The notes beneath the pieces were generated by a model. That model saw only the letters and a list, made by a program, of their open reading frames with translations. It did no database searches and had not been told where the DNA came from. 64,000 bases of DNA from Inediibacterium massiliense (lineage in GTDB: Bacteria > Bacillota > Clostridia > Peptostreptococcales > Thermotaleaceae): the NCBI RefSeq assembly GCF_001282725.1, contig NZ_LN876586.1, positions 335,009 to 399,008 of the forward strand, in the 5' to 3' direction. Made by a program: the position numbers and the translations under genes. This document shows positions 44,951 through 64,000 of the stretch, piece after piece. The first letter of the stretch is position 1, and each line of letters opens with the position of its first letter.

Positions 44951-45015
44951 TTTCATATATGATCATGACTATGAATAAAATAGATTATAAAAAATGTATA
45001 AAGGAGGAAGAAAGT

Positions 45016-45720
45016 TTGATTGTAGTCATGAAAAAAAAATGGATTCTTCGTTTTTTTGTATTATGTCTTGGATTATATATATTTAGTTTGTCTACACAAA
45101 TTTTAGAAGTTTCGAATAGGATTATGCTCAACAAAGTGATTATCATTGATGCAGGTCATGGAGGGGTAGATGGAGGGGCTGTATCTAAATCAGGTGTATG
45201 TGAAAGTCATATAAATCTTTCTATTGCATTAAAGGTAAGAAAGTTATTAGAGCAAGATGGAGCAATAGTCCTTTTAACAAGGAATCAAGATGTAGGCCTT
45301 TATACTGAAGATGGAAGTATTAGAAAGAAAAAAAATGAAGATTTAAGAAATAGAAAAAAAATGAGGGATGAAAGTGATGCAGATTTATTTGTGAGTATAC
45401 ATATGAATAGCTTTGGAGATTCTAAATATTATGGAGCACAAACCTTTTATCCTAAAGATTCAAAAGAAAGTAAAAAAGTATCAGAATATATACAAGAAGA
45501 ACTAATTAAAGTATTAGATAAAGGGAATACTAGAAAAGCTAAGGAAAAAAGTGATGTGTATCTTTTAAAAGAATCTAACATTCCCATGGTATTAATAGAA
45601 TGTGGTTTTTTATCGAATCAACAAGAAGAAAAGCTTTTACAAGATTCTAAATATCAAGAGAAAGTTGCATGGAGTATTTATACGGGAATCATGAAATATT
45701 TTCAGCAAGATAAAATATAA
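45016..45720 (+). CDS. cwlD: N-acetylmuramoyl-L-alanine amidase, CwlD type
   Basis: Zinc amidase of the Amidase_3 family; CwlD removes peptide from muramic acid so that PdaA can make the muramic-delta-lactam of spore cortex. The 234-residue protein has an N-terminal signal anchor (about 12-33) and the motifs IIDAGHGG (zinc His), GVCESHINLSIA (zinc Glu), SIHMNSF (zinc His) and LIECGFLSN (catalytic Glu). TTG 45016 is chosen because AAGGAGG (45001-45007) precedes it. Length matches CwlD (about 237). Confidence 0.9.
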   Translation: MIVVMKKKWILRFFVLCLGLYIFSLSTQILEVSNRIMLNKVIIIDAGHGGVDGGAVSKSGVCESHINLSIALKVRKLLEQDGAIVLLTRNQDVGLYTEDGSIRKKKNEDLRNRKKMRDESDADLFVSIHMNSFGDSKYYGAQTFYPKDSKESKKVSEYIQEELIKVLDKGNTRKAKEKSDVYLLKESNIPMVLIECGFLSNQQEEKLLQDSKYQEKVAWSIYTGIMKYFQQDKI

Positions 45721-45757: not shown

Positions 45758-45987
45758 TGTGGATAAAATGTGGATAAAAAAAATAAAAAATTTAAAACAA
45801 AGTAAAGTCAACAGTTACATGCATGTTATGTTATCCACAGAATTATCCAGAGTCAAAAATGTATTTTAGAATAAATATGTGGAAAAAGAGGATAAAAAAA
45901 TAATATCTATGAAAAATCAATGTTTGTAGAGGGCATCATTTATTCACAAATATTATCCACATTTTTTAAAAAATGTGGATAATATTT
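45758..45987. other. DnaA-box cluster with a 40-base perfect palindrome
   Basis: Five perfect 9-mers TGTGGATAA/TTATCCACA occur at 45758-45766, 45769-45777, 45831-45839, 45953-45961 and 45974-45982. Near matches are at 45843-45851 (TTATCCAGA), 45878-45886 (TGTGGAAAA) and 45940-45948 (TTATTCACA). The first two are direct repeats one helical turn apart (11 bases). The last two face each other inside a perfect palindrome, 45948-45967 against 45968-45987. The DNA is very A/T-rich. No dnaA, dnaN or rpmH is present nearby. Confidence 0.8.
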
Positions 45988-46646: not shown

Positions 46647-46892
46647 ATGATAACCATTCATGTATGTATTGGAAGTGCCTGTCATTTAAAAGGTGCATAC
46701 AATGTTATTCATGGCCTGCAAAAAATTGTAGAACAATATCATCTTCATGAACAAGTAACAATTAAAGCTGATTTTTGCCTTGGGGAGTGTACAAAAGCAG
46801 TATCTGTTAAAGTTAATGATGGCCCCATTATTTCAGTAAATGAAAAAAATATTGAGGAATTCTTTGAAGAAGCTGTTTTGAGGAGGTTATGA
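46647..46892 (+). CDS. [2Fe-2S] thioredoxin-like ferredoxin subunit (HydC/NuoE-like)
   Basis: An 81-residue protein with four cysteines in the NuoE-like pattern: CIGSAC (residues 7-12) and CLGEC (about 44-48), expected to hold a [2Fe-2S] cluster for electron transfer. ATG 46647 follows GAAGGGAGCGG. It is the first gene of a four-gene cluster resembling the hfsABCD arrangement of Thermoanaerobacterium, and its stop is next to the second gene. Confidence 0.85.
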   Translation: MITIHVCIGSACHLKGAYNVIHGLQKIVEQYHLHEQVTIKADFCLGECTKAVSVKVNDGPIISVNEKNIEEFFEEAVLRRL

Positions 46893-46894
46893 TC

Positions 46895-48613
46895 TTGAGC
46901 ATCTTAAACTTTTCAAAAGCAAATTGCAAAAATTGTTATAAATGTCTTAGAGCATGTCCAGTAAAAGCTATTCGAATTCAGAACGAACAAGCAGAGATTG
47001 TAGAAGATTTATGTATTGGATGTGGACAGTGTTTAATGATTTGTCCACAAAATGCTAGACAAATAAAAAGTGATCTACAACAAGTGCAAGATGCCATAAA
47101 ATCACAAAAAACAGTCATAGCAAGTGTAGCACCTTCGTTTCCAGGAGCGTTTGATATGGAGAGTGAAGAGCAACTTGTAACGGCTTTAAAAAAATTAGGA
47201 TTTTCTTATGTAGAAGAAGCTGCTGTAGGAGCAGATGTAGTAGCAGATTTATATAAAGAATATATAAAAAAAGAGAAAAAAAATAATTATATTACTTCTG
47301 CTTGTCCCAGTGTCAATGATTTAATTGAGAAATATTTTCCAGCTTTAATTGAATATTTGATACCTATTGTATCTCCTATGATTGCTCATGGGAAAATGAT
47401 TAAAAAAGAGTATGGGATGGATGGTCATGTAGTTTTTATTGGACCATGTCCATCAAAAAAAATAGAATCTATTCACTTTCAACACGATGGAGTAGTAGAT
47501 AGTGTTTTGACTTTTGAAGAACTTTATCAATGGCTAGAAGAAGAAAATATTCATCTCAAGAATTTAGAGAATACTCCTTTTGACAAAGAAGCTTTACAAA
47601 GTGGAAAAAGCTTCCCTATAGCAGGGAGTGTTTTAAAAAGTTTTTTGAAAGACGAAAAGGATTATGAAATGATTTATGTAGATGGAATTGATCAATGTAT
47701 GAAAGTATTTGAGTCTTTACAAAACGGAACAATTAACAATGCCTGTATCGAGGCAAATATCTGCTTAGGAAGTTGTATAGGGGGGGCAGGTATGCCTAAA
47801 GGAGAAAGAGATTTTTATAAAGATCAAAGAAAAATTAAAGATTATATTAAAGAAAAAAAATATACAAAAACTTACTCTCAACCAGAAATAAAAGAATTAA
47901 ATTTTTTTAAAAAGTTTTTAAATAAAGAAGTAATCAAACCAAAGGCTAATGAAGAACAGATCAAAGAAATACTCAAAAAAATTGGAAAATATCATATAGA
48001 AGATGAACTCAATTGTGGAGGTTGTGGTTATAATACTTGCAGAGAAAAAGCACAAGCTGTATTTGAAGGTATGGCACAAATTAATATGTGTATGCCTTTT
48101 ATGAGAAATAAAGCAGAAAGATTGACCAATGTAATTTTTGAACATACGCCAAATATTATTATTTTAGTAGATGAACAATTAAATGTGAAAGAATTTAATC
48201 CTACGGCAGAGAAAGTTTTTAAAATCAAAGCAGAGGAAATAAAAAATAAACAGGTTTCTATTATTTTAGATGAAAAGTTATTTTTACAAGTGAAAAATAC
48301 AAAAGAAAATATAACAGGATATAAGATGGCTTATTCTCAATATGAGGTAGTATTATTACAAAGTATTTTATATTTGGAAAAACAAAATGTTTTACTTGCA
48401 ATTATGACCAATACTACATCAGAGGAAAAACATCGAAAAGAACTTGTTCGAGTAAAAGAAAGAACTATAGATGCTGCACAAGAGGTTATAGAAAAACAAA
48501 TGAGAGTGGCACAAGAGATTGCAAGCTTATTAGGGGAGACTACAGCAGAAACCAAGATCATTCTTACAAAATTAAAGCAAATTGCTTTAGAGGAAAATGG
48601 TGATATAGAATGA
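46895..48613 (+). CDS. [FeFe]-hydrogenase-like sensor with FeS and PAS domains
   Basis: A 572-residue modular protein. In order: two [4Fe-4S] ferredoxin motifs ([24 protein letters not shown]), an H-cluster domain with TSACPS, GPCPSKK and CLGSCIGG (about 60-330), an extra FeS domain with CGGCGYNTC (about 370-385), a PAS domain (about 410-500) and a helical tail. In the first H-cluster motif Ala replaces the proton-relay Cys of catalytic enzymes (TSCCP), as in sensory HydS. H2 or redox sensing is therefore inferred. TTG 46895 fits SD AGGAGG with spacing 8; ATG 46889 is too close. Confidence 0.85.
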
Positions 48614-49779
48614 CTTATGTTATGGATGTATCTTCTGAAAGTTTAAATAAATATGGAGAAGAACTATGTGGGGATAAGGTAGAAATTAATCATACAAAGG
48701 ATGGAACAATTATTGTTTTGGCAGATGGATTAGGAAGTGGAGTAAAGGCAAATATTTTAGCAACTTTAACTACAAAGATTGCAGCTACTATGCTCACAGA
48801 GGGAGTAAGCTTAGATGAAACAGTAGATACCATTATGAATACTCTTCCTGTATGTAGTGTGAGAAAAATTGCTTATTCTACTTTTACGATTATAAAGGTA
48901 AGTCATGAGGGAAATGTATATGCAGTGGAGTATGATAACCCGCCATTTATTTTAATTCGAAATAATAGATATTGGGAAATAAAAAAAAGAGAGAGTAATA
49001 TTAATGGAAGAATTATAAAAGAGAGCAATTTTTCATTAAAGCCAGGAGACACCTTAACTATCGTAAGTGATGGAGTGATTCATGCAGGGGTAGGAGCTAT
49101 TCTTAATTTAGGATGGCAATGGGATAATGTGAAAGATTATTTAGAAAAAACATCATCAAAGGAAAAATGCTCTAAGAATATAAGTAAAAACTTAATAGAA
49201 GTTTGTCAAAATTTATATGAGAATAAACCTGGAGATGATACAACCGTTGTAACCATAAAAATGAGAAAAGGAGAAGAAATAGATCTCTTTACAGGACCGC
49301 CAAAGGATAAATCTAATGATCCTATGGTTATTAAAAGTTTTATGGAAGGGGAAGGCAAAAAAGTAGTCTGCGGAGGAACGGCAGCTAATATTGTGGCAAG
49401 AGAATTAAAAGAAGAATTAGTAGTCAATATGGATTTTTATGATCCTGATATACCTCCTACAGCGACTATAAATGGAATAGAACTTGTTACAGAGGGTGTA
49501 CTTACATTGTGTAAAGTAGTGGAGAAAATAAAAAAATATATGAATACGTTAGATATCAATACAGTTTATAAGCCAAGGGACAAAGATGGGGCTTCAAAAC
49601 TTGTAAAAATGCTTATAGAAGATTGTACGCATCTTCACTTATGGGTTGGAAAAGCTATCAATCCAGCACATCAAAATACTGATTTTCCTATAGACTTGAC
49701 CATCAAATTAAAAGTAGTAGATGAATTGGTAGAATTGATGAAAAAATTAGGGAAACATGTAAAAATAACATATGTATAA
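48610..49779 (+). CDS. SpoIIE-type PP2C serine phosphatase
   Basis: A 389-residue protein with a PP2C/SpoIIE domain: metal-binding aspartates appear in [25 protein letters not shown] and GDDTTVVTI. The last 170 residues form a second domain of unknown role. It overlaps the sensor hydrogenase by 4 bases (ATGA), so the two are coupled in translation. The likely role is to pass the sensor signal by dephosphorylating an unknown protein; its target is not visible here. Confidence 0.88.
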
Positions 49780-49790
49780 GGAGAGCTGTG

Positions 49791-51248
49791 ATGAGAAAAT
49801 TTGAAAATAATGTTCAGATGATTAAATATAAAGTTTTAAAAGAAGTATCTAGATTTGCCATGGAAGGAAAATTACATGAAAACCTAGGCAATATTCCAGA
49901 TATTGTTTTAGCAGATCCAAATACAAGAAATAGATGTTGCATCTATAAGGAAAGAGCTATTGTCACAGAGAGGGTCAATCTTGCTATTGGAGGAGATAAA
50001 AATAATTCTAATATTATAGAAGTTTTAGAAAGTGCTTGTGATGAATGTCCTATAGATCGATTTACAATTACTGAGGCGTGCAGAGGATGTCTTGCACATA
50101 GATGTTCAGAGGTGTGTCCTGTAGGAGCTATTTTTCATGTGGGACAAAGGGCATACATCAATCAAGAAAAATGTATTGAGTGTGGAAGATGTAGAGATGC
50201 TTGTCAGTATAATGCAATTTCAGATGTAATGCGTCCTTGTAGAGGGGCATGTCCTACAAAGGCTTTATCTATTGATGAAAATAGAAAAGTAGTGATAGAC
50301 AATGATAAATGTATACAATGTGGTATATGTATCATACAATGTCCTTTTGGAGCTTTAATGGATAAATCTTTTGTAATAGATGTGATTGAACTTTTAAAAA
50401 ATGAAAAAGAAGAGACTCATGTATATGCTGTGATTGCACCGGCTATTGCCAGTCAATTTACAGAAGTAAAAATAGAGAAGATGATATCAGCCATTAAAAA
50501 ATTAGGATTTCATGATGTAGTAGAAGCTGCTTTAGGAGCAGATATGGTAGCTTTACATGAGGCACATGAATTTAAAGATACAATAAAAGAAAAAGAATTT
50601 ATGACAACTTCTTGCTGTCCTTCTTTTGTAGAGTATATCAAAAAAGAGTATCCTACTCTTTTAGATCATGTGTCTAGTACTGTATCTCCAATGATTGCTA
50701 TATCAAGGCTTATCAAAAAAACTGATCCTATGGCGAAGGTAGTATTTATAGGTCCATGTACTGCAAAAAAGGCTGAAATTCAAAAGGAAGATATAAAGGG
50801 CAGTACAGATTATGTACTGACTTTTGAGGAACTTTGTGCTATGATTGACGCAGCAGAAATAAATGTAGAGGAATGTGAAGAAGATGTACTCAACAATGCT
50901 TCTTTCTTTGGAAGAATTTTTGCTAGATCAGGAGGAGTAACACAAGCTGTGAGCCATATTATAGAGGAAGAAGGAATGAATGTAGAGTTAAATCCTGTAT
51001 GTTGTGATGGAATTAAGGAATGTGATAAAGCTTTAAAATTAGCAAAGTTAGGAAGAGTCCAAGGAAATTTTATAGAAGGAATGACATGTATTGGAGGATG
51101 TATCGGAGGAGCTGCATCACTTCATCATGGATCAAAGGATAAAAAAGAAGTAGACAAATATGGAGAAAAAGCATTAGAAAAGAAAATAAAGGATGCATTA
51201 AGAGTATTTGAAATGAATGATATTGATCTTCATACAACACATAAATAA
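49791..51248 (+). CDS. [FeFe]-hydrogenase catalytic subunit, group B type
   Basis: A 485-residue enzyme for reversible H2 formation from reduced ferredoxin. Several ferredoxin motifs lie in the first 200 residues (CRGCLAHRCSEVCP, CIECGRCRDAC, CIQCGICIIQCP). The H-cluster motifs are complete: TTSCCPSF with the proton-relay Cys, GPCTAKKAE and EGMTCIGGCIGGAA. ATG 49791 fits SD AAGGAGAG; GTG 49788 is too close. It ends the cluster before a strong terminator. The HydEFG maturases are not in the window. Confidence 0.92.
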   Translation: MRKFENNVQMIKYKVLKEVSRFAMEGKLHENLGNIPDIVLADPNTRNRCCIYKERAIVTERVNLAIGGDKNNSNIIEVLESACDECPIDRFTITEACRGCLAHRCSEVCPVGAIFHVGQRAYINQEKCIECGRCRDACQYNAISDVMRPCRGACPTKALSIDENRKVVIDNDKCIQCGICIIQCPFGALMDKSFVIDVIELLKNEKEETHVYAVIAPAIASQFTEVKIEKMISAIKKLGFHDVVEAALGADMVALHEAHEFKDTIKEKEFMTTSCCPSFVEYIKKEYPTLLDHVSSTVSPMIAISRLIKKTDPMAKVVFIGPCTAKKAEIQKEDIKGSTDYVLTFEELCAMIDAAEINVEECEEDVLNNASFFGRIFARSGGVTQAVSHIIEEEGMNVELNPVCCDGIKECDKALKLAKLGRVQGNFIEGMTCIGGCIGGAASLHHGSKDKKEVDKYGEKALEKKIKDALRVFEMNDIDLHTTHK

Positions 51249-59218: not shown

Positions 59219-60043
59219 ATGTTAGAAGAAATCTTTCGTTATGAATTTTTACAACATGCTATTTTAAGTGCTATTTTTGCAAGTATTGCATGTGGGATCA
59301 TTGGAACAATTATTACAGAAAAAAATTTAATTATGATGAGTGGAGGAATTGCACATACGGCTTTTGGAGGAATTGGAATGGGTTATTTTATAGGAGTTGA
59401 ACCTATATTTGGAGCTTTGGTATTTTCTATTGCAGCAGCTTTGGGAGTAAACAAAATCCATAAAAAAACTCATACAGGAGAAGATGTATTAGTAGGTATG
59501 TTCTGGTCGTTAGGAATGGCCATTGGGATTTTATTTATATGGTTAACACCTGGATATCCCCCAGAGTTATCTTCTTATCTTTTTGGAGATATATTGACAG
59601 TTTCTAAAATAGATTTGTATATGATTATTCTAGTAGATTTGATAATTTTAGGTATAGTAGGAGCTTATTTTCAACAATTTAAAGCATATTTATTTGATGA
59701 AGAGTTTGCAGCAGTAATTGGGATAAAGACTAGTTATTTAGAAAAAATAGTTTTTATTTTAATTGCTTTAACCATTGTAATTTTAATAAGGGTAGTAGGA
59801 ATTATTTTAATTATAGCACTCCTTACAGTACCTACAGCTATTGCAAAGGAATTTACTTATGATTTAAAAAAAATTATGATTTTGTCAAGTTTAGTAGGAA
59901 TTTTATTTTGTCTTTTTGGTCTGTTTGTTTCCTATATATTACAAATACCTTCAGGTGCAAGCATTGTAATTTCATTAGTCATATCTTATTTTATCCTTTG
60001 TATGATAAAAAATAAGACAAAAAAAGAAAAACTTTCTATTTAA
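59219..60043 (+). CDS. znuB: Metal ABC transporter permease, ABC-3 family
   Basis: A 274-residue membrane protein with about eight spans and MMSGGIAHTAFGGIGMGY near the start, a family hallmark. ATG 59219 follows SD GAGGAGG (59206-59212); a longer reading from 59168 would overlap the ATPase gene heavily. It completes the znuA-C-B unit. Confidence 0.94.
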   Translation: MLEEIFRYEFLQHAILSAIFASIACGIIGTIITEKNLIMMSGGIAHTAFGGIGMGYFIGVEPIFGALVFSIAAALGVNKIHKKTHTGEDVLVGMFWSLGMAIGILFIWLTPGYPPELSSYLFGDILTVSKIDLYMIILVDLIILGIVGAYFQQFKAYLFDEEFAAVIGIKTSYLEKIVFILIALTIVILIRVVGIILIIALLTVPTAIAKEFTYDLKKIMILSSLVGILFCLFGLFVSYILQIPSGASIVISLVISYFILCMIKNKTKKEKLSI

Positions 60044-60056
60044 AGAAAGTTTTTTT
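60027..60056 (+). terminator. Terminator after znuB
   Basis: AAAACTTTC and GAAAGTTTT form a stem overlapping the stop codon, followed by a T run. Confidence 0.88.
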
Positions 60057-60218
60057 GTTCTTTAGAAGATTATGTATTTGATAAAATTGTGTTTTTTTTG
60101 TCTTTCATAAAATTGTAAAGTATCTTTCAAAATAAAATACATATACTAAAAGTCAAAAGGAAGTAAAAATTCCAGTAAAAATATGCAGATCAATAAGAAA
60201 TGGTGTGAGATGCTCATC

Positions 60219-61388
60219 ATGAAAAAAATAAAATGGTATATGTTATTGATTATTTTTTTGTTTCCAATAAAATGCTTTGGAATGGATGAAGATATAGATC
60301 ATATGGTTTATATTGTAGTAAATGACCAGTTGATAAGTTTTGAAGAAACTTATCCTGTCATTCAAAATGGAACTACTTATGTTCCTATTAGATTTTTAGC
60401 ACAACATTTAAAGGTAAAAATAAAGTGGGATAAAAAAAGCAATAATATTTTTCTCACAAAAGGGAGCAAACAGATTATACTGGATCTAAATTTAAATGCT
60501 TTATTTACCAATCAAGGACAAGTTATTATAGATAGTATTTTTTTAGAAGATGGAAGAACAATGGTGCCTTATAAGTTCATAGCTAAATATTTTGGATATG
60601 AAGTAAGTTATATTGATAAAGGCCCTATTGCAAGAGCTACCAATGAAAGTTTATGTGTAGAAGATAAAGATTTATTTAATATACTTCAAAATAAAATTCT
60701 ACAGGAAAAAGAAAAAATTTTGACTCAAATAAAAAGAAAAAAAGAAGAACAAATAGCAAAAGAAAGAATTGAAATGAGAAAAAATCTTAAAGTTGTATAT
60801 ATTACTTTTGATGATGGGCCTACTCCTTATACAAAAGAAATATTAGATATACTCAATCAATACGATGCTAAAGCTACTTTTTTTATGCTTTCCGATAGAA
60901 TTAGAAGCTATAAATCTGTAGTAAGAGAAATGATTTCTCAAGGAAATAGTGTAGGGCTTCATGGAGTCAGTCATAATGTAAAACAAATTTATCAGTCTGA
61001 ACATACAGTAATTAAAGAAATGAATGAGTGTAATGACCAATTACAAGAAGTAGTAGGCATAAGAAGCAATTTAATTCGTGTTCCTTATGGAAGTGTTCCC
61101 CATATGAAGAAGAATTATGTAGATGCTGTAAAAACAGCTGGATATAGAATGTGGGATTGGAATGTGGATAGCAAAGATAGTTGTGGAAAAAATATTCTAC
61201 CTAATGAGATAGTAGAAAATGTAAAAAAACAAGTAAAAAATAAAAAAGTTGCAGTCATATTACTTCATGAAAGAAAATCTACAGTCAAAGCACTTCCTTA
61301 TATTTTGCAATACTTAAAAGATCGAGGATATATTACAGTTCCTATTGATTATAGAGAAGAACCTATAAATTTCTGGAATAAAAAATAA
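60219..61388 (+). CDS. Polysaccharide deacetylase with N-terminal copper-amine-oxidase-like domain
   Basis: A 389-residue secreted enzyme. Signal peptide at about 1-21; then a CuAO-N1-type repeat domain (YVPIRFLAQHLKVKIKWDKK and MVPYKFIAKYFGYEVSY, about 30-140) that may bind cell wall; a charged helical linker; and a NodB domain with TFDDGPTP (catalytic Asp), HGVSHN (two metal His), RVPYGSVP and LLHE. It probably deacetylates peptidoglycan. The start is uncertain: ATG 60219 has a weak GGTGTGAG ahead; 60210 and 60183 are alternatives. Confidence 0.85.
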   Translation: MKKIKWYMLLIIFLFPIKCFGMDEDIDHMVYIVVNDQLISFEETYPVIQNGTTYVPIRFLAQHLKVKIKWDKKSNNIFLTKGSKQIILDLNLNALFTNQGQVIIDSIFLEDGRTMVPYKFIAKYFGYEVSYIDKGPIARATNESLCVEDKDLFNILQNKILQEKEKILTQIKRKKEEQIAKERIEMRKNLKVVYITFDDGPTPYTKEILDILNQYDAKATFFMLSDRIRSYKSVVREMISQGNSVGLHGVSHNVKQIYQSEHTVIKEMNECNDQLQEVVGIRSNLIRVPYGSVPHMKKNYVDAVKTAGYRMWDWNVDSKDSCGKNILPNEIVENVKKQVKNKKVAVILLHERKSTVKALPYILQYLKDRGYITVPIDYREEPINFWNKK

Positions 61389-61412
61389 GACTATTTATAG
61401 TCTTATTTTTTA
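61381..61412. terminator. Bidirectional terminator between convergent genes
   Basis: AAAAAATAAGACTAT and ATAGTCTTATTTTTT are complementary, with A and T flanks that serve both the deacetylase (plus) and the SNF transporter (minus). Confidence 0.92.
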
Positions 61413-61417
61413 ATGAT

Positions 61418-62746
61418 TTATCCAATTCCTCCATAAATGACTCCTAAAATTAAAACAATTCCTGCTATAAATACAAATATATATTTAGCAAAGAACTCCC
61501 ACCACTTTCCTAAAGGATTTTTTGCTCCTTTGTTGATTTCTTCTCTTGCATTTTCAATTCCATAAATCCAAAAAAATGTAATTGCAGCTAAAACAGCACT
61601 AAGAGGAAGAAGGTAGATGGAAATAAAATCTGCAAAATTACCAAACCAATTCATATTTAGATCAAGAGGAATTCCAAAGATAAAACCTATTCCTGCAGCA
61701 ACAAATACGCTTTTTTTCCGATTCCAAGAGAATTGATCCATAAAAGATTCTACTAAAACTTCCATCAATACAATTTCAGTAGAAATAGCAGCAAATAAAA
61801 TACATAAGAAAAATAATATACCAAATAAATATCCACCAGCCATTTCCTTAAATATGTGAGGCATAGTGATAAATAACAAAGGGGGTCCAGCTGTTACATC
61901 TAAGTGAAATGCAAAAGAAGCAGGAATAATAATAAATGCAGCTAAAAGAGCAGCAAAAGTATCAAAAAAAGCTGTATGAACAGCAGAAGAAGGAATATCT
62001 TCGTTTTTTGGAAGATAGCTTCCTAGTACTACCATACCTGCTCCCCCTAAGGATACAGTAAAAAATGCTTGGCCTAGTGCCATAATCCAAGTTATAGGTT
62101 TTGTAAGATAAGACCAATCAGGAACTAAAAGATATTTTACTCCTTCTATAGAACCAGGTAGTGATAAAGAACGGATCATAAGGAATAGAAACAAAATAAA
62201 TAATGAAGGCATCATAATTTTATTCATTTTTTCAATTCCTTGTTTGATTCCTAGAATAACAATGCTTACGGTAATGGAAATAGCTAAAAAGTTCCAAATT
62301 ATACTTTCTGGTTGCCCTACAAAACTATCAAATGAACGTGTAATATCAATATGATAAAAATCTCCTTTTATGGCAAATGAAAAATATTTGAGTACCCAAC
62401 CTACTACTACTGAATAAAAGATCAGTACACCTGTTTGAGCAATAACAGGAATGCTTCCAACACATGTACCAAAGGGAAGATTTCTTTTTTGAAATACCTT
62501 TTTAAAGGCACCCATAGAGCCTCTTTGTTGAGATCGTCCAAAAGCAAATTCTCCCATAAGTCCTGTAGTTCCTAATCCAAATACAAATAATAAATATGGA
62601 ATTAAAAAGGCAGCTCCTCCAAATTGGCCAAGTCTCCAAGGGAACATCCAAATATTACCTAATCCTATGGCAGAACCAATACAAGCCAAAATGAAACCTA
62701 GTTTACTTGTCCACGTTTCCCTTTCTATTTCATGAAAATTTTTCAA
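61418..62746 (-). CDS. Sodium-dependent transporter, SNF/NSS family
   Basis: A 442-residue membrane protein with 11 to 12 spans. The first helix has the sodium-site sequence GSAIGLGNIWMFPWR, followed by GGAAFLIPYLL and FAFGRSQQRGSMGAF. Bacterial members are amino acid symporters (for example MhsT and LeuT); the substrate is not evident. TTG at 62746 is preferred, because AAAGGATGG lies 8 bases ahead and it gives the family N-terminus before RETWTSKLGF; the longer reading from 62788 lacks an SD. A long leader with an attenuator-like stem precedes it. Confidence 0.88.
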   Translation of the reverse strand: MKNFHEIERETWTSKLGFILACIGSAIGLGNIWMFPWRLGQFGGAAFLIPYLLFVFGLGTTGLMGEFAFGRSQQRGSMGAFKKVFQKRNLPFGTCVGSIPVIAQTGVLIFYSVVVGWVLKYFSFAIKGDFYHIDITRSFDSFVGQPESIIWNFLAISITVSIVILGIKQGIEKMNKIMMPSLFILFLFLMIRSLSLPGSIEGVKYLLVPDWSYLTKPITWIMALGQAFFTVSLGGAGMVVLGSYLPKNEDIPSSAVHTAFFDTFAALLAAFIIIPASFAFHLDVTAGPPLLFITMPHIFKEMAGGYLFGILFFLCILFAAISTEIVLMEVLVESFMDQFSWNRKKSVFVAAGIGFIFGIPLDLNMNWFGNFADFISIYLLPLSAVLAAITFFWIYGIENAREEINKGAKNPLGKWWEFFAKYIFVFIAGIVLILGVIYGGIG

Positions 62747-62810
62747 ATAATATACCATCCTTTCTAAAGTTATCCACAGTGTATTCATTTATATAATTTC
62801 CTAAAGAGTA

Positions 62811-62945
62811 AAAAAAACTCTCCGTAGGAGAGTTTTTTTATACTAAAAATATCATTAGTAATAATTATATATTTTCTACTCAACTACGATCCTACTATTA
62901 TAACTGCTATTTTTAAATTGATTTCCTACTAGGCTACCATCTACT
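62811..62945 (-). promoter_or_regulatory. Attenuator-like leader of the SNF transporter gene
   Basis: On the minus strand a 13-bp terminator stem (AAAAAAACTCTCC/GGAGAGTTTTTTT, plus positions 62839-62827 and 62823-62811) with loop TAC ends in T residues, 65 bases before the start codon. Two upstream copies of GTAGGA (62929-62924 and 62895-62890), plus CGTAG-TT-GAG near 62888-62879, are complementary to the TCCTAC/CTCCTACG part of the stem (62831-62824). They could form an antiterminator. No known aptamer is recognised. Confidence 0.55.
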
Positions 62946-62951
62946 TTTTTC

Positions 62952-62980
62952 ATTTTATCTAAAAAATTTTTCACTGTCAA
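62952..62980 (-). promoter_or_regulatory. Sigma-A promoter of the SNF transporter gene
   Basis: Read on the minus strand: TTGACA (62980-62975), 17 bases, TAAAAT (62957-62952). A perfect -35 and good spacing; the transcript would carry a leader of about 200 bases. Confidence 0.82.
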
Positions 62981-63072
62981 TATAACTTTATAAATAAGGG
63001 AAAATAGAAATAAAATAATTTGGTTAAACTATATGATACAACTTGAAAAATAAGGATTGGAGAGGAAAAGTA

Positions 63073-64000
63073 GTGAATAAAGAAGTCATTTCAGATGGCC
63101 AAGGAATATCTATTGCTGTTTTATTTCTTTCAGGAACATCTACCATATTAGTAATGGCATTATGTGCCAAAGGTGATTTCTGGATTGCTATTATTTTAGC
63201 TGTTTTATTGGGCTTAATTATGTCGTTTGTATTGACTAAGTTAAATCATCAATTTCCAGGAAAAAATTTATATGATATCCATGAAATTTGTTATGGGAAA
63301 TTTTTAGGAAAAATAATTAGCTTTTTATATATGTATTTTTTATTTGAAGAGGGAATTGCAGTTTTTTCTAATACAAAGCAATTTATTACAGAAACTAGTA
63401 TTTTAGAGACTCCTCAGATCATTACTATTATTCCCTTAGCTTTACTATGTGTTTGGGCAGTAAAATCAGGAATAGAGGTAATTGGAAGATGGGCAAAATT
63501 ATTTATCATTTTATTTGTGATTGTAGTGACTTGTATGTCTATTCTTTTATTACCTAAAATAGAACTAAGCAATATGGAGCCTATCTTATATAATGGAGTA
63601 AAGCCTGTTTTAGAAGGTACATTGATGGCTTTTGCTTTTCCATTTGGAGAGATAATTATATTAGCTTTTGTTTTTGAAAATTTTCAAACAAAGAAATCTC
63701 CTAAAAAAATTTATGTATGGGGGTTAATTTTGGCAGGGATTATTGCAATGAATAATTCAGTAATTACTGTTTTGTTTTTAGGTATTGATATTTCCACTAC
63801 TTCTTATTTTCCTGTATTTCATGCAGCGGCAGGAATAGATGTAGGAGAGTTCATACAAAGGTTAGAGGTTTTTACAGTATTAATTGGTGTATTAGGAGCT
63901 TTTTTAAAAAATAGTATCTTGCTATTATGTGTTTGCAAAGGAATAGGAAAAATATTTAATATATTAGATTATAAATTATTCTCTCTGCCTGTAGTTTTAA
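63073..64000 (+). CDS. Endospore germination permease, GerAB/GerKB family (partial, runs off the edge)
   Basis: An open frame from GTG 63073 (SD GGAGAGG at 63059-63065) continues to the window end, 309 codons so far. It starts MNKEVISDGQGISIAVLFLS and has many spans; helix pairs such as GTSTILVMAL and the FAFPFGEIIILAFVFEN segment fit the GerB branch of the APC superfamily. B subunits recognise amino acid germinants. It is a stand-alone B gene here, about 8 kb from the A-C-D-C group that lacks a B subunit. A second ger operon may begin here beyond the edge. Confidence 0.85.
   Translation, partial: MNKEVISDGQGISIAVLFLSGTSTILVMALCAKGDFWIAIILAVLLGLIMSFVLTKLNHQFPGKNLYDIHEICYGKFLGKIISFLYMYFLFEEGIAVFSNTKQFITETSILETPQIITIIPLALLCVWAVKSGIEVIGRWAKLFIILFVIVVTCMSILLLPKIELSNMEPILYNGVKPVLEGTLMAFAFPFGEIIILAFVFENFQTKKSPKKIYVWGLILAGIIAMNNSVITVLFLGIDISTTSYFPVFHAAAGIDVGEFIQRLEVFTVLIGVLGAFLKNSILLLCVCKGIGKIFNILDYKLFSLPVVL

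Follow-up and report, generated by a model that had tools for sequence, protein, structure and literature searches.

The window analysed here, a stretch of 64,000 nucleotides, carries between cwlD and a microprotein gene a compact group of DnaA boxes, away from dnaA itself. Why so many boxes should stand together at this place is the question that the locus raises. The initial annotation counted five exact and three near boxes in about 230 bases, held that such density would not be expected by chance, laid weight on a perfect palindrome at one end of the group, and proposed a titration or regulatory site or an accessory origin element.

The DnaA-box array downstream of cwlD

The box word searched was TTATCCACA, and words with one mismatch were taken as near boxes. 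All eight boxes were recovered (Table 1), with the first two in tandem as had been described, and a search of Rfam at the array gave no match. The palindrome containing the last two boxes is indeed perfect in this genome, with arms at 45948-45967 and 45968-45987 and no spacer. That part of the description stands, but its emphasis does not, because the palindromy is not conserved in relatives: box 8 is itself variable (Table 1), and in the same-genus relative G001 the centre of the palindrome is imperfect. The palindrome is a local detail, and the conserved features are the order and spacing of the boxes.

Table 1. Positions in the window of the DnaA boxes, the array and the flanking genes
Feature	Position	Strand	Remarks
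DnaA box 1	45758..45766	-	exact
DnaA box 2	45769..45777	-	exact; in tandem with box 1, 11 nt
DnaA box 3	45831..45839	+	exact; same letters in 12/12 family arrays
DnaA box 4	45843..45851	+	TTATCCAGA, one mismatch; 12 nt past box 3
DnaA box 5	45878..45886	-	TTTTCCACA, one mismatch; the other 11 family arrays have TTGTCCACA
DnaA box 6	45940..45948	+	TTATTCACA, one mismatch
DnaA box 7	45953..45961	+	exact; in tandem with box 6, 13 nt
DnaA box 8	45974..45982	-	exact; absent from 4/12 family arrays
Perfect palindrome, 40 nt	45948..45987		contains boxes 7 and 8; palindromy itself not conserved
Whole array, 225 bp	45758..45982		near-mirror, boxes 1, 2, 3 against 7, 6, 5; axis about 45859
cwlD, N-acetylmuramoyl-L-alanine amidase	44959..45720	+	TIGR02883 above cut-off; PF01520; the neighbour that remains linked
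Microprotein ORF, about 25 aa	46327..46404	+	downstream of the array; linked to it in some genomes only

The exact box occurs six times in the window, five of them in the array, against a mean of 0.85 and a maximum of four in 100 shuffles. With up to one mismatch allowed, the densest 230-bp stretch of the window holds eight boxes, the maximum in 200 first-order Markov shuffles being four. Across the whole genome (3,497,276 bases in 14 contigs) there are 67 exact boxes and 76 copies of a reversed control word, so that the boxes are clustered rather than over-represented; when 67 boxes were placed at random in 20,000 trials, never more than three fell within 225 bp. Five places in the genome have at least three exact boxes with gaps of at most 300 bp, and one further place has two. 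Two of the five flank dnaA and represent oriC (four boxes before the gene and three after it), the others being the array at cwlD (five), a cluster before hpf-secA (three) and a cluster after tsaD (three). The array is the densest of these places, and the claim that its density exceeds chance is borne out by the genome-wide ranking as well as by the shuffles. Boxes grouped beyond chance and away from dnaA are what would be expected of a cluster of the kind found outside oriC in Bacillus subtilis.

Two simpler signatures were tried across larger samples. A pair of boxes 60-70 nt apart was rejected as the sole signature because it is not specific, being present in 102 of 393 genomes of the order, including instances of a different element in family f11 and of clusters beside tsaD. 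A three-box pattern was found in this genome alone among 391 genomes of the class, which speaks for rarity and not for range since that sample lacked the other members of this family (f1) and the f6 and f9 genomes used here.

Conservation of box order and spacing

Sixteen f1 genomes, this one included, entered the search of relatives, and 14 were assessable after cwlD, G002 having no match and G004 ending 17 nt past the gene. They were scanned with an eight-box template that allowed each box at most one mismatch and a place within 3 nt of that expected, over about 3.41 million positions, a figure that includes overlapping loci. The full set of eight boxes is in register in eight genomes (G000, G001, G003, G005, G010, G012, G014, G015) and seven are in register in four (G006, G007, G008, G011), which gives 12 of the 14 an array of seven or eight boxes; the array is degenerate in G013, with four boxes kept, and absent from G009, where there is a single near match. 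Template scores of five or more were found only at these arrays, on either strand, and at those of family f6, and the best score in 100 shuffles of the window was two. Read backwards, the array scores six on the forward template (five in G005) because its layout is nearly mirror-symmetric.

Across the 12 arrays the mean pairwise identity of boxes 1 to 8 is 97, 93, 100, 90, 98, 86, 95 and 59%, a measure that is partly a product of construction because the boxes were located by match, so that the template scan and the spacing are the fairer tests. The four long spacers are 58, 49, 54 and 62% identical, and the 100 nt past the array 52%. Measured from start to start, successive boxes are 11, 62-63, 12, 34-36, 61-63, 13 and 21-22 nt apart, distances that are thus fixed to 1-2 nt over 12 genomes while the spacers have diverged, a combination that would be expected of a locus resembling datA or DARS. 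The mirror layout <11< 62 >47< 62 >13> is present in all 12, boxes 1, 2 and 3 pairing with 7, 6 and 5 at distances of 11, 62-63, then 46-48 over the axis, then 61-63 and 13; the symmetry takes in neither box 4 nor the variable box 8. This layout suggests that DnaA could form a symmetric complex on the array. A stretch near AGTAAAATCAA, 20-30 nt before box 3 (window 45775-45831), is also more conserved in the 12 arrays than the rest of its spacer and might be a putative site for a second protein.

Related clusters outside the family

The genomes of the wider group (sets of 40 and 36) were hand-picked to spread over families. Sister families keep three to five boxes of the array: in f6 this applies to all five genomes assessed, G020, G042 and G059 having five in register, G067 four and G031 boxes 3-5. 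In f9 it applies to all three, since G023, G034 and G045 each have four in register, nearly all of these boxes with a mismatch. Four or more boxes with another spacing form a cluster that starts 15-22 nt past cwlD in eight of 12 f3 genomes (present in G017, G028, G077, G082, G092, G106, G122 and G130; absent from G039, G049, G056 and G064), and f3-like clusters also follow cwlD in Anaerovirgula multivorans (L160) and in a metagenome-assembled genome (MAG L166). In family f2 a cluster lies directly 3' of the AmmeMemoRadiSam A/B fusion gene in seven of the ten genomes with that gene (G063, G109, G121, G125, G133, G154 and G169, with G048, G081 and G142 lacking it), and the f12 genome G026 likewise has a cluster directly after it. 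Three boxes follow cwlD in the f11 genome G279 and two in G036. Five or more boxes within 300 nt were found at six of 80 named cwlD loci, beside the gene in L160, L161, L162, L164 and L166 and 1.5 kb past it in L159.

No cluster was found after cwlD in any of six f4 genomes, three of which had less than 500 nt readable, nor past cwlD or the fusion gene in the f8 genome G022, nor past the fusion gene in families f5 (two genomes), f7 (one) and f10 (one), and none of 11 cwlD loci from Bacilli has three boxes. Taken with its absence from G009 and its degenerate form in G013, this indicates that the array is dispensable over longer times.

Family f11 also has an element of another design. At loci L078-L098 (from position 1501) two DnaA boxes spaced 73-75 nt stand on either side of a TTGACA-like hexamer and a TTGAAATTTCAA-like dyad. 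Two conserved genes often enclose this arrangement, and in G279 one copy lies past cwlD. It is apparently a separate, undescribed element.

Partner clusters and chromosomal position

The other two clusters of this genome, after tsaD (gcp) and before hpf-secA, lie at L063 3358-3507 and L062 5521-5709. In all 20 genomes examined tsaD is followed by four or more boxes within 250 bp, and the same density is found no more than 700 nt upstream of hpf in 17 of 20; in G007 and G017 the hpf cluster lies about 600-870 nt upstream, and G008 has no cluster before hpf. Each partner cluster has a spacing of its own that is repeated across relatives. By place the tsaD cluster corresponds to the gcp-ydiF region of B. 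subtilis, which is reported to bind DnaA strongly (PMC4447404).

The distance from cwlD to dnaA is 387 kb in G006, 402 kb in G008, 593 kb in G015 and 921 kb in G011, or 0.127, 0.146, 0.129 and 0.159 of the chromosome in these four genomes of 2.76-5.79 Mb. In the same four, tsaD lies at 0.103-0.218 and hpf at 0.099-0.212 of the chromosome from dnaA. Four genomes cannot separate conservation of relative distance from oriC from synteny.

Neighbouring genes and alternative roles

The order cwlD, fusion gene, array, radical SAM gene is found in G007, G010, G011, G020, G023 and G034, with the fusion and radical SAM genes identified by NCBIfam in G010 and by eye elsewhere. In this genome, G006, G008, G012, G014 and G015 these two genes are not at the locus and a hydrogenase-like module follows the array; in the window, positions 46647-51248 encode consecutively a thioredoxin-like ferredoxin, an iron hydrogenase-like protein with a PAS domain, a SpoIIE-type phosphatase and then another iron hydrogenase-like protein. 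The microprotein, which is conserved in 11 of the 14 family genomes, contains a single hydrophobic stretch and has no Pfam match. Upstream of it lies a conserved CATATAATGAA...GGAGGGG stretch which we take to resemble a sporulation-type -10.

Such a setting might suggest a DnaA-controlled promoter or operator, with the array regulating the microprotein, the hydrogenase-like module or read-through from cwlD in the manner of sda, and there is a promoter-like TTGATA-18-TATATT after the palindrome. The microprotein was moreover found within 1.5 kb of cwlD only in the eight genomes then known to have a full array nearby, and DnaA is described as a transcription factor in B. subtilis in the part of PMC4447404 available. 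However, promoter-like sites are no commoner than in shuffles (16 against 17.2), and the gene past the array varies (microprotein and hydrogenase-like module, AmrS, others), whereas a promoter of the sda type should keep the same target gene beside it across genomes. More than 1 kb separates the microprotein from the array in G003 and G011, and in G010 the gap is 5.9 kb. The module lies directly past cwlD where the array is absent (G009) or degenerate (G013), and the DNA read in G001, G003, G005, G007 and G011 has the array without the module. Furthermore, 10 of the 13 loci with a cluster directly past cwlD, all of the f3 type, have a convergent holin-family gene opposite (PF04020 in L160), the three without it being L161, L162 and L164. 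A promoter role does not fit an array that persists as its neighbours change, nor f3 clusters that lie between convergent gene ends, and we consider it unlikely; an intergenic position independent of any single target gene, as seen here, is what would be expected of a cluster of the B. subtilis type. The narrower idea that the array is the promoter of the microprotein was dropped when longer flanks revealed the microprotein elsewhere and arrays 1.5-1.6 kb from cwlD (G003, G007, G010, G011).

An array that is 76% A/T and holds several DnaA boxes might equally be an accessory or former replication origin. However, a bipartite oriC with a DnaA-trio already flanks dnaA, the dnaA-dnaN gap carrying the run TAGTAGTAATAGTAGTAG, and no DnaA-trio run was found in the array and the 300 nt around it, although on this loose measure other 840-nt pieces of the window, which are coding, match the oriC count. 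An origin should also coincide with a switch of GC skew, and the skew is positive in all 32 of the 2-kb steps of the window, array included. With dnaA located and the skew computed over the window, the accessory origin proposed in the initial annotation was rejected on the skew and the missing trio, and the origin reading as a whole is exceedingly improbable. A DnaA-bound structural site, acting in chromosome folding or in placement of the origin region with no effect on initiation, could account for the rigid, mirror-like geometry and for a location that in four genomes is 0.13-0.16 of a chromosome length away from dnaA. Nothing in the analysis ties the array to folding or segregation, though, and we know of no precedent for a structural role at DnaA-box clusters, which makes this explanation quite improbable too. 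As a separate observation, the GC skew declines towards the window's end (60001-64000), from about 0.25 to 0.03.

A proposed role in the control of initiation

The array is probably a chromosomal DnaA-box cluster of the B. subtilis kind, predicted to bind DnaA and to restrain or time initiation at oriC. A control site is probable because the boxes and their exact distances have been kept in related clostridia while the intervening DNA changed. The titration or regulatory site first proposed thereby gains indirect support, from the conserved boxes and spacing, the independence of neighbouring genes and the parallel in B. subtilis. DnaA would assemble on the array in a fixed order, and the array would withdraw it from oriC, perhaps also altering its state, until a second copy of the site has been made by replication; with less free DnaA, initiation at oriC would be restrained or timed. 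We infer all three elements, that is, DnaA binding, its order and the change of initiation, from sequence comparison. Distances that are fixed and mirror-like are in keeping with an ordered complex; a plain sink would need boxes and not fixed distances.

In B. subtilis, removal of six clusters is followed by early initiation (PMC5295017, PMC13220808), an effect that is strong only when all six are gone and is partly relieved by one cluster, and the review PMC5295017 plays it down as not a significant role. DnaA overproduction of about 10-fold gives no over-initiation in B. subtilis (PMC13220808). On these accounts the effect of the B. subtilis clusters is modest. No match to YabA was found in this genome by a search in which B. 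subtilis and Lactococcus lactis were positive, and homologues of YabA and Rok are reported not to have been identified in Clostridioides difficile either (PMC7561715). DnaA-box clusters may carry more of initiation control in this clade. A bolder and rather doubtful extension is that, without YabA, the mirror array and its partners at tsaD and hpf-secA would be the main chromosomal device that counts or resets DnaA, the symmetric complex acting on DnaA activity or nucleotide state as an independently evolved counterpart of datA and DARS.

For the control of initiation in Firmicutes without YabA, an array with spacing fixed across genera offers concrete DNA to delete, move and re-space, by which a plain DnaA sink could be told apart from a complex that is ordered and active, and because one partner cluster shares its place with B. 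subtilis the same question can be asked across the phylum.

Comparison with known systems

In the literature searched, which was covered in part and included few subscription papers, no account of DnaA boxes clustered at cwlD was found. The clostridial bipartite oriC of C. difficile is similar in having DnaA-box clusters, but its oriC2 contains a DnaA-trio (PMC7561715, in the part available), whereas the cwlD array has no trio, lies away from dnaA and is without a skew switch. The sda promoter of B. subtilis likewise has a DnaA-box array near a small-protein gene; the cwlD array, unlike it, has no constant adjacent target gene. In Escherichia coli, datA, DARS1 and DARS2 are non-coding DnaA-box loci whose sites and relative distances from oriC are conserved (parts of PMC4585315 and PMC5010248), and in being a non-coding locus with a conserved site the array is alike. 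However, datA and DARS depend on IHF or Fis and work through the nucleotide state of DnaA, and they are not homologous by place to the cwlD array.

DnaA-box clusters outside oriC, gcp-ydiF for example, were reportedly described in B. subtilis by Okumura in 2012. The array shares with them an intergenic position outside oriC, and its tsaD (gcp) partner stands at the same place as one of them. The likeness is one of place, and cwlD is not among the high-affinity DnaA regions of B. subtilis given in the available part of PMC4447404. The best reading is that the cwlD array is a new chromosomal DnaA-box cluster of this known B. subtilis kind.
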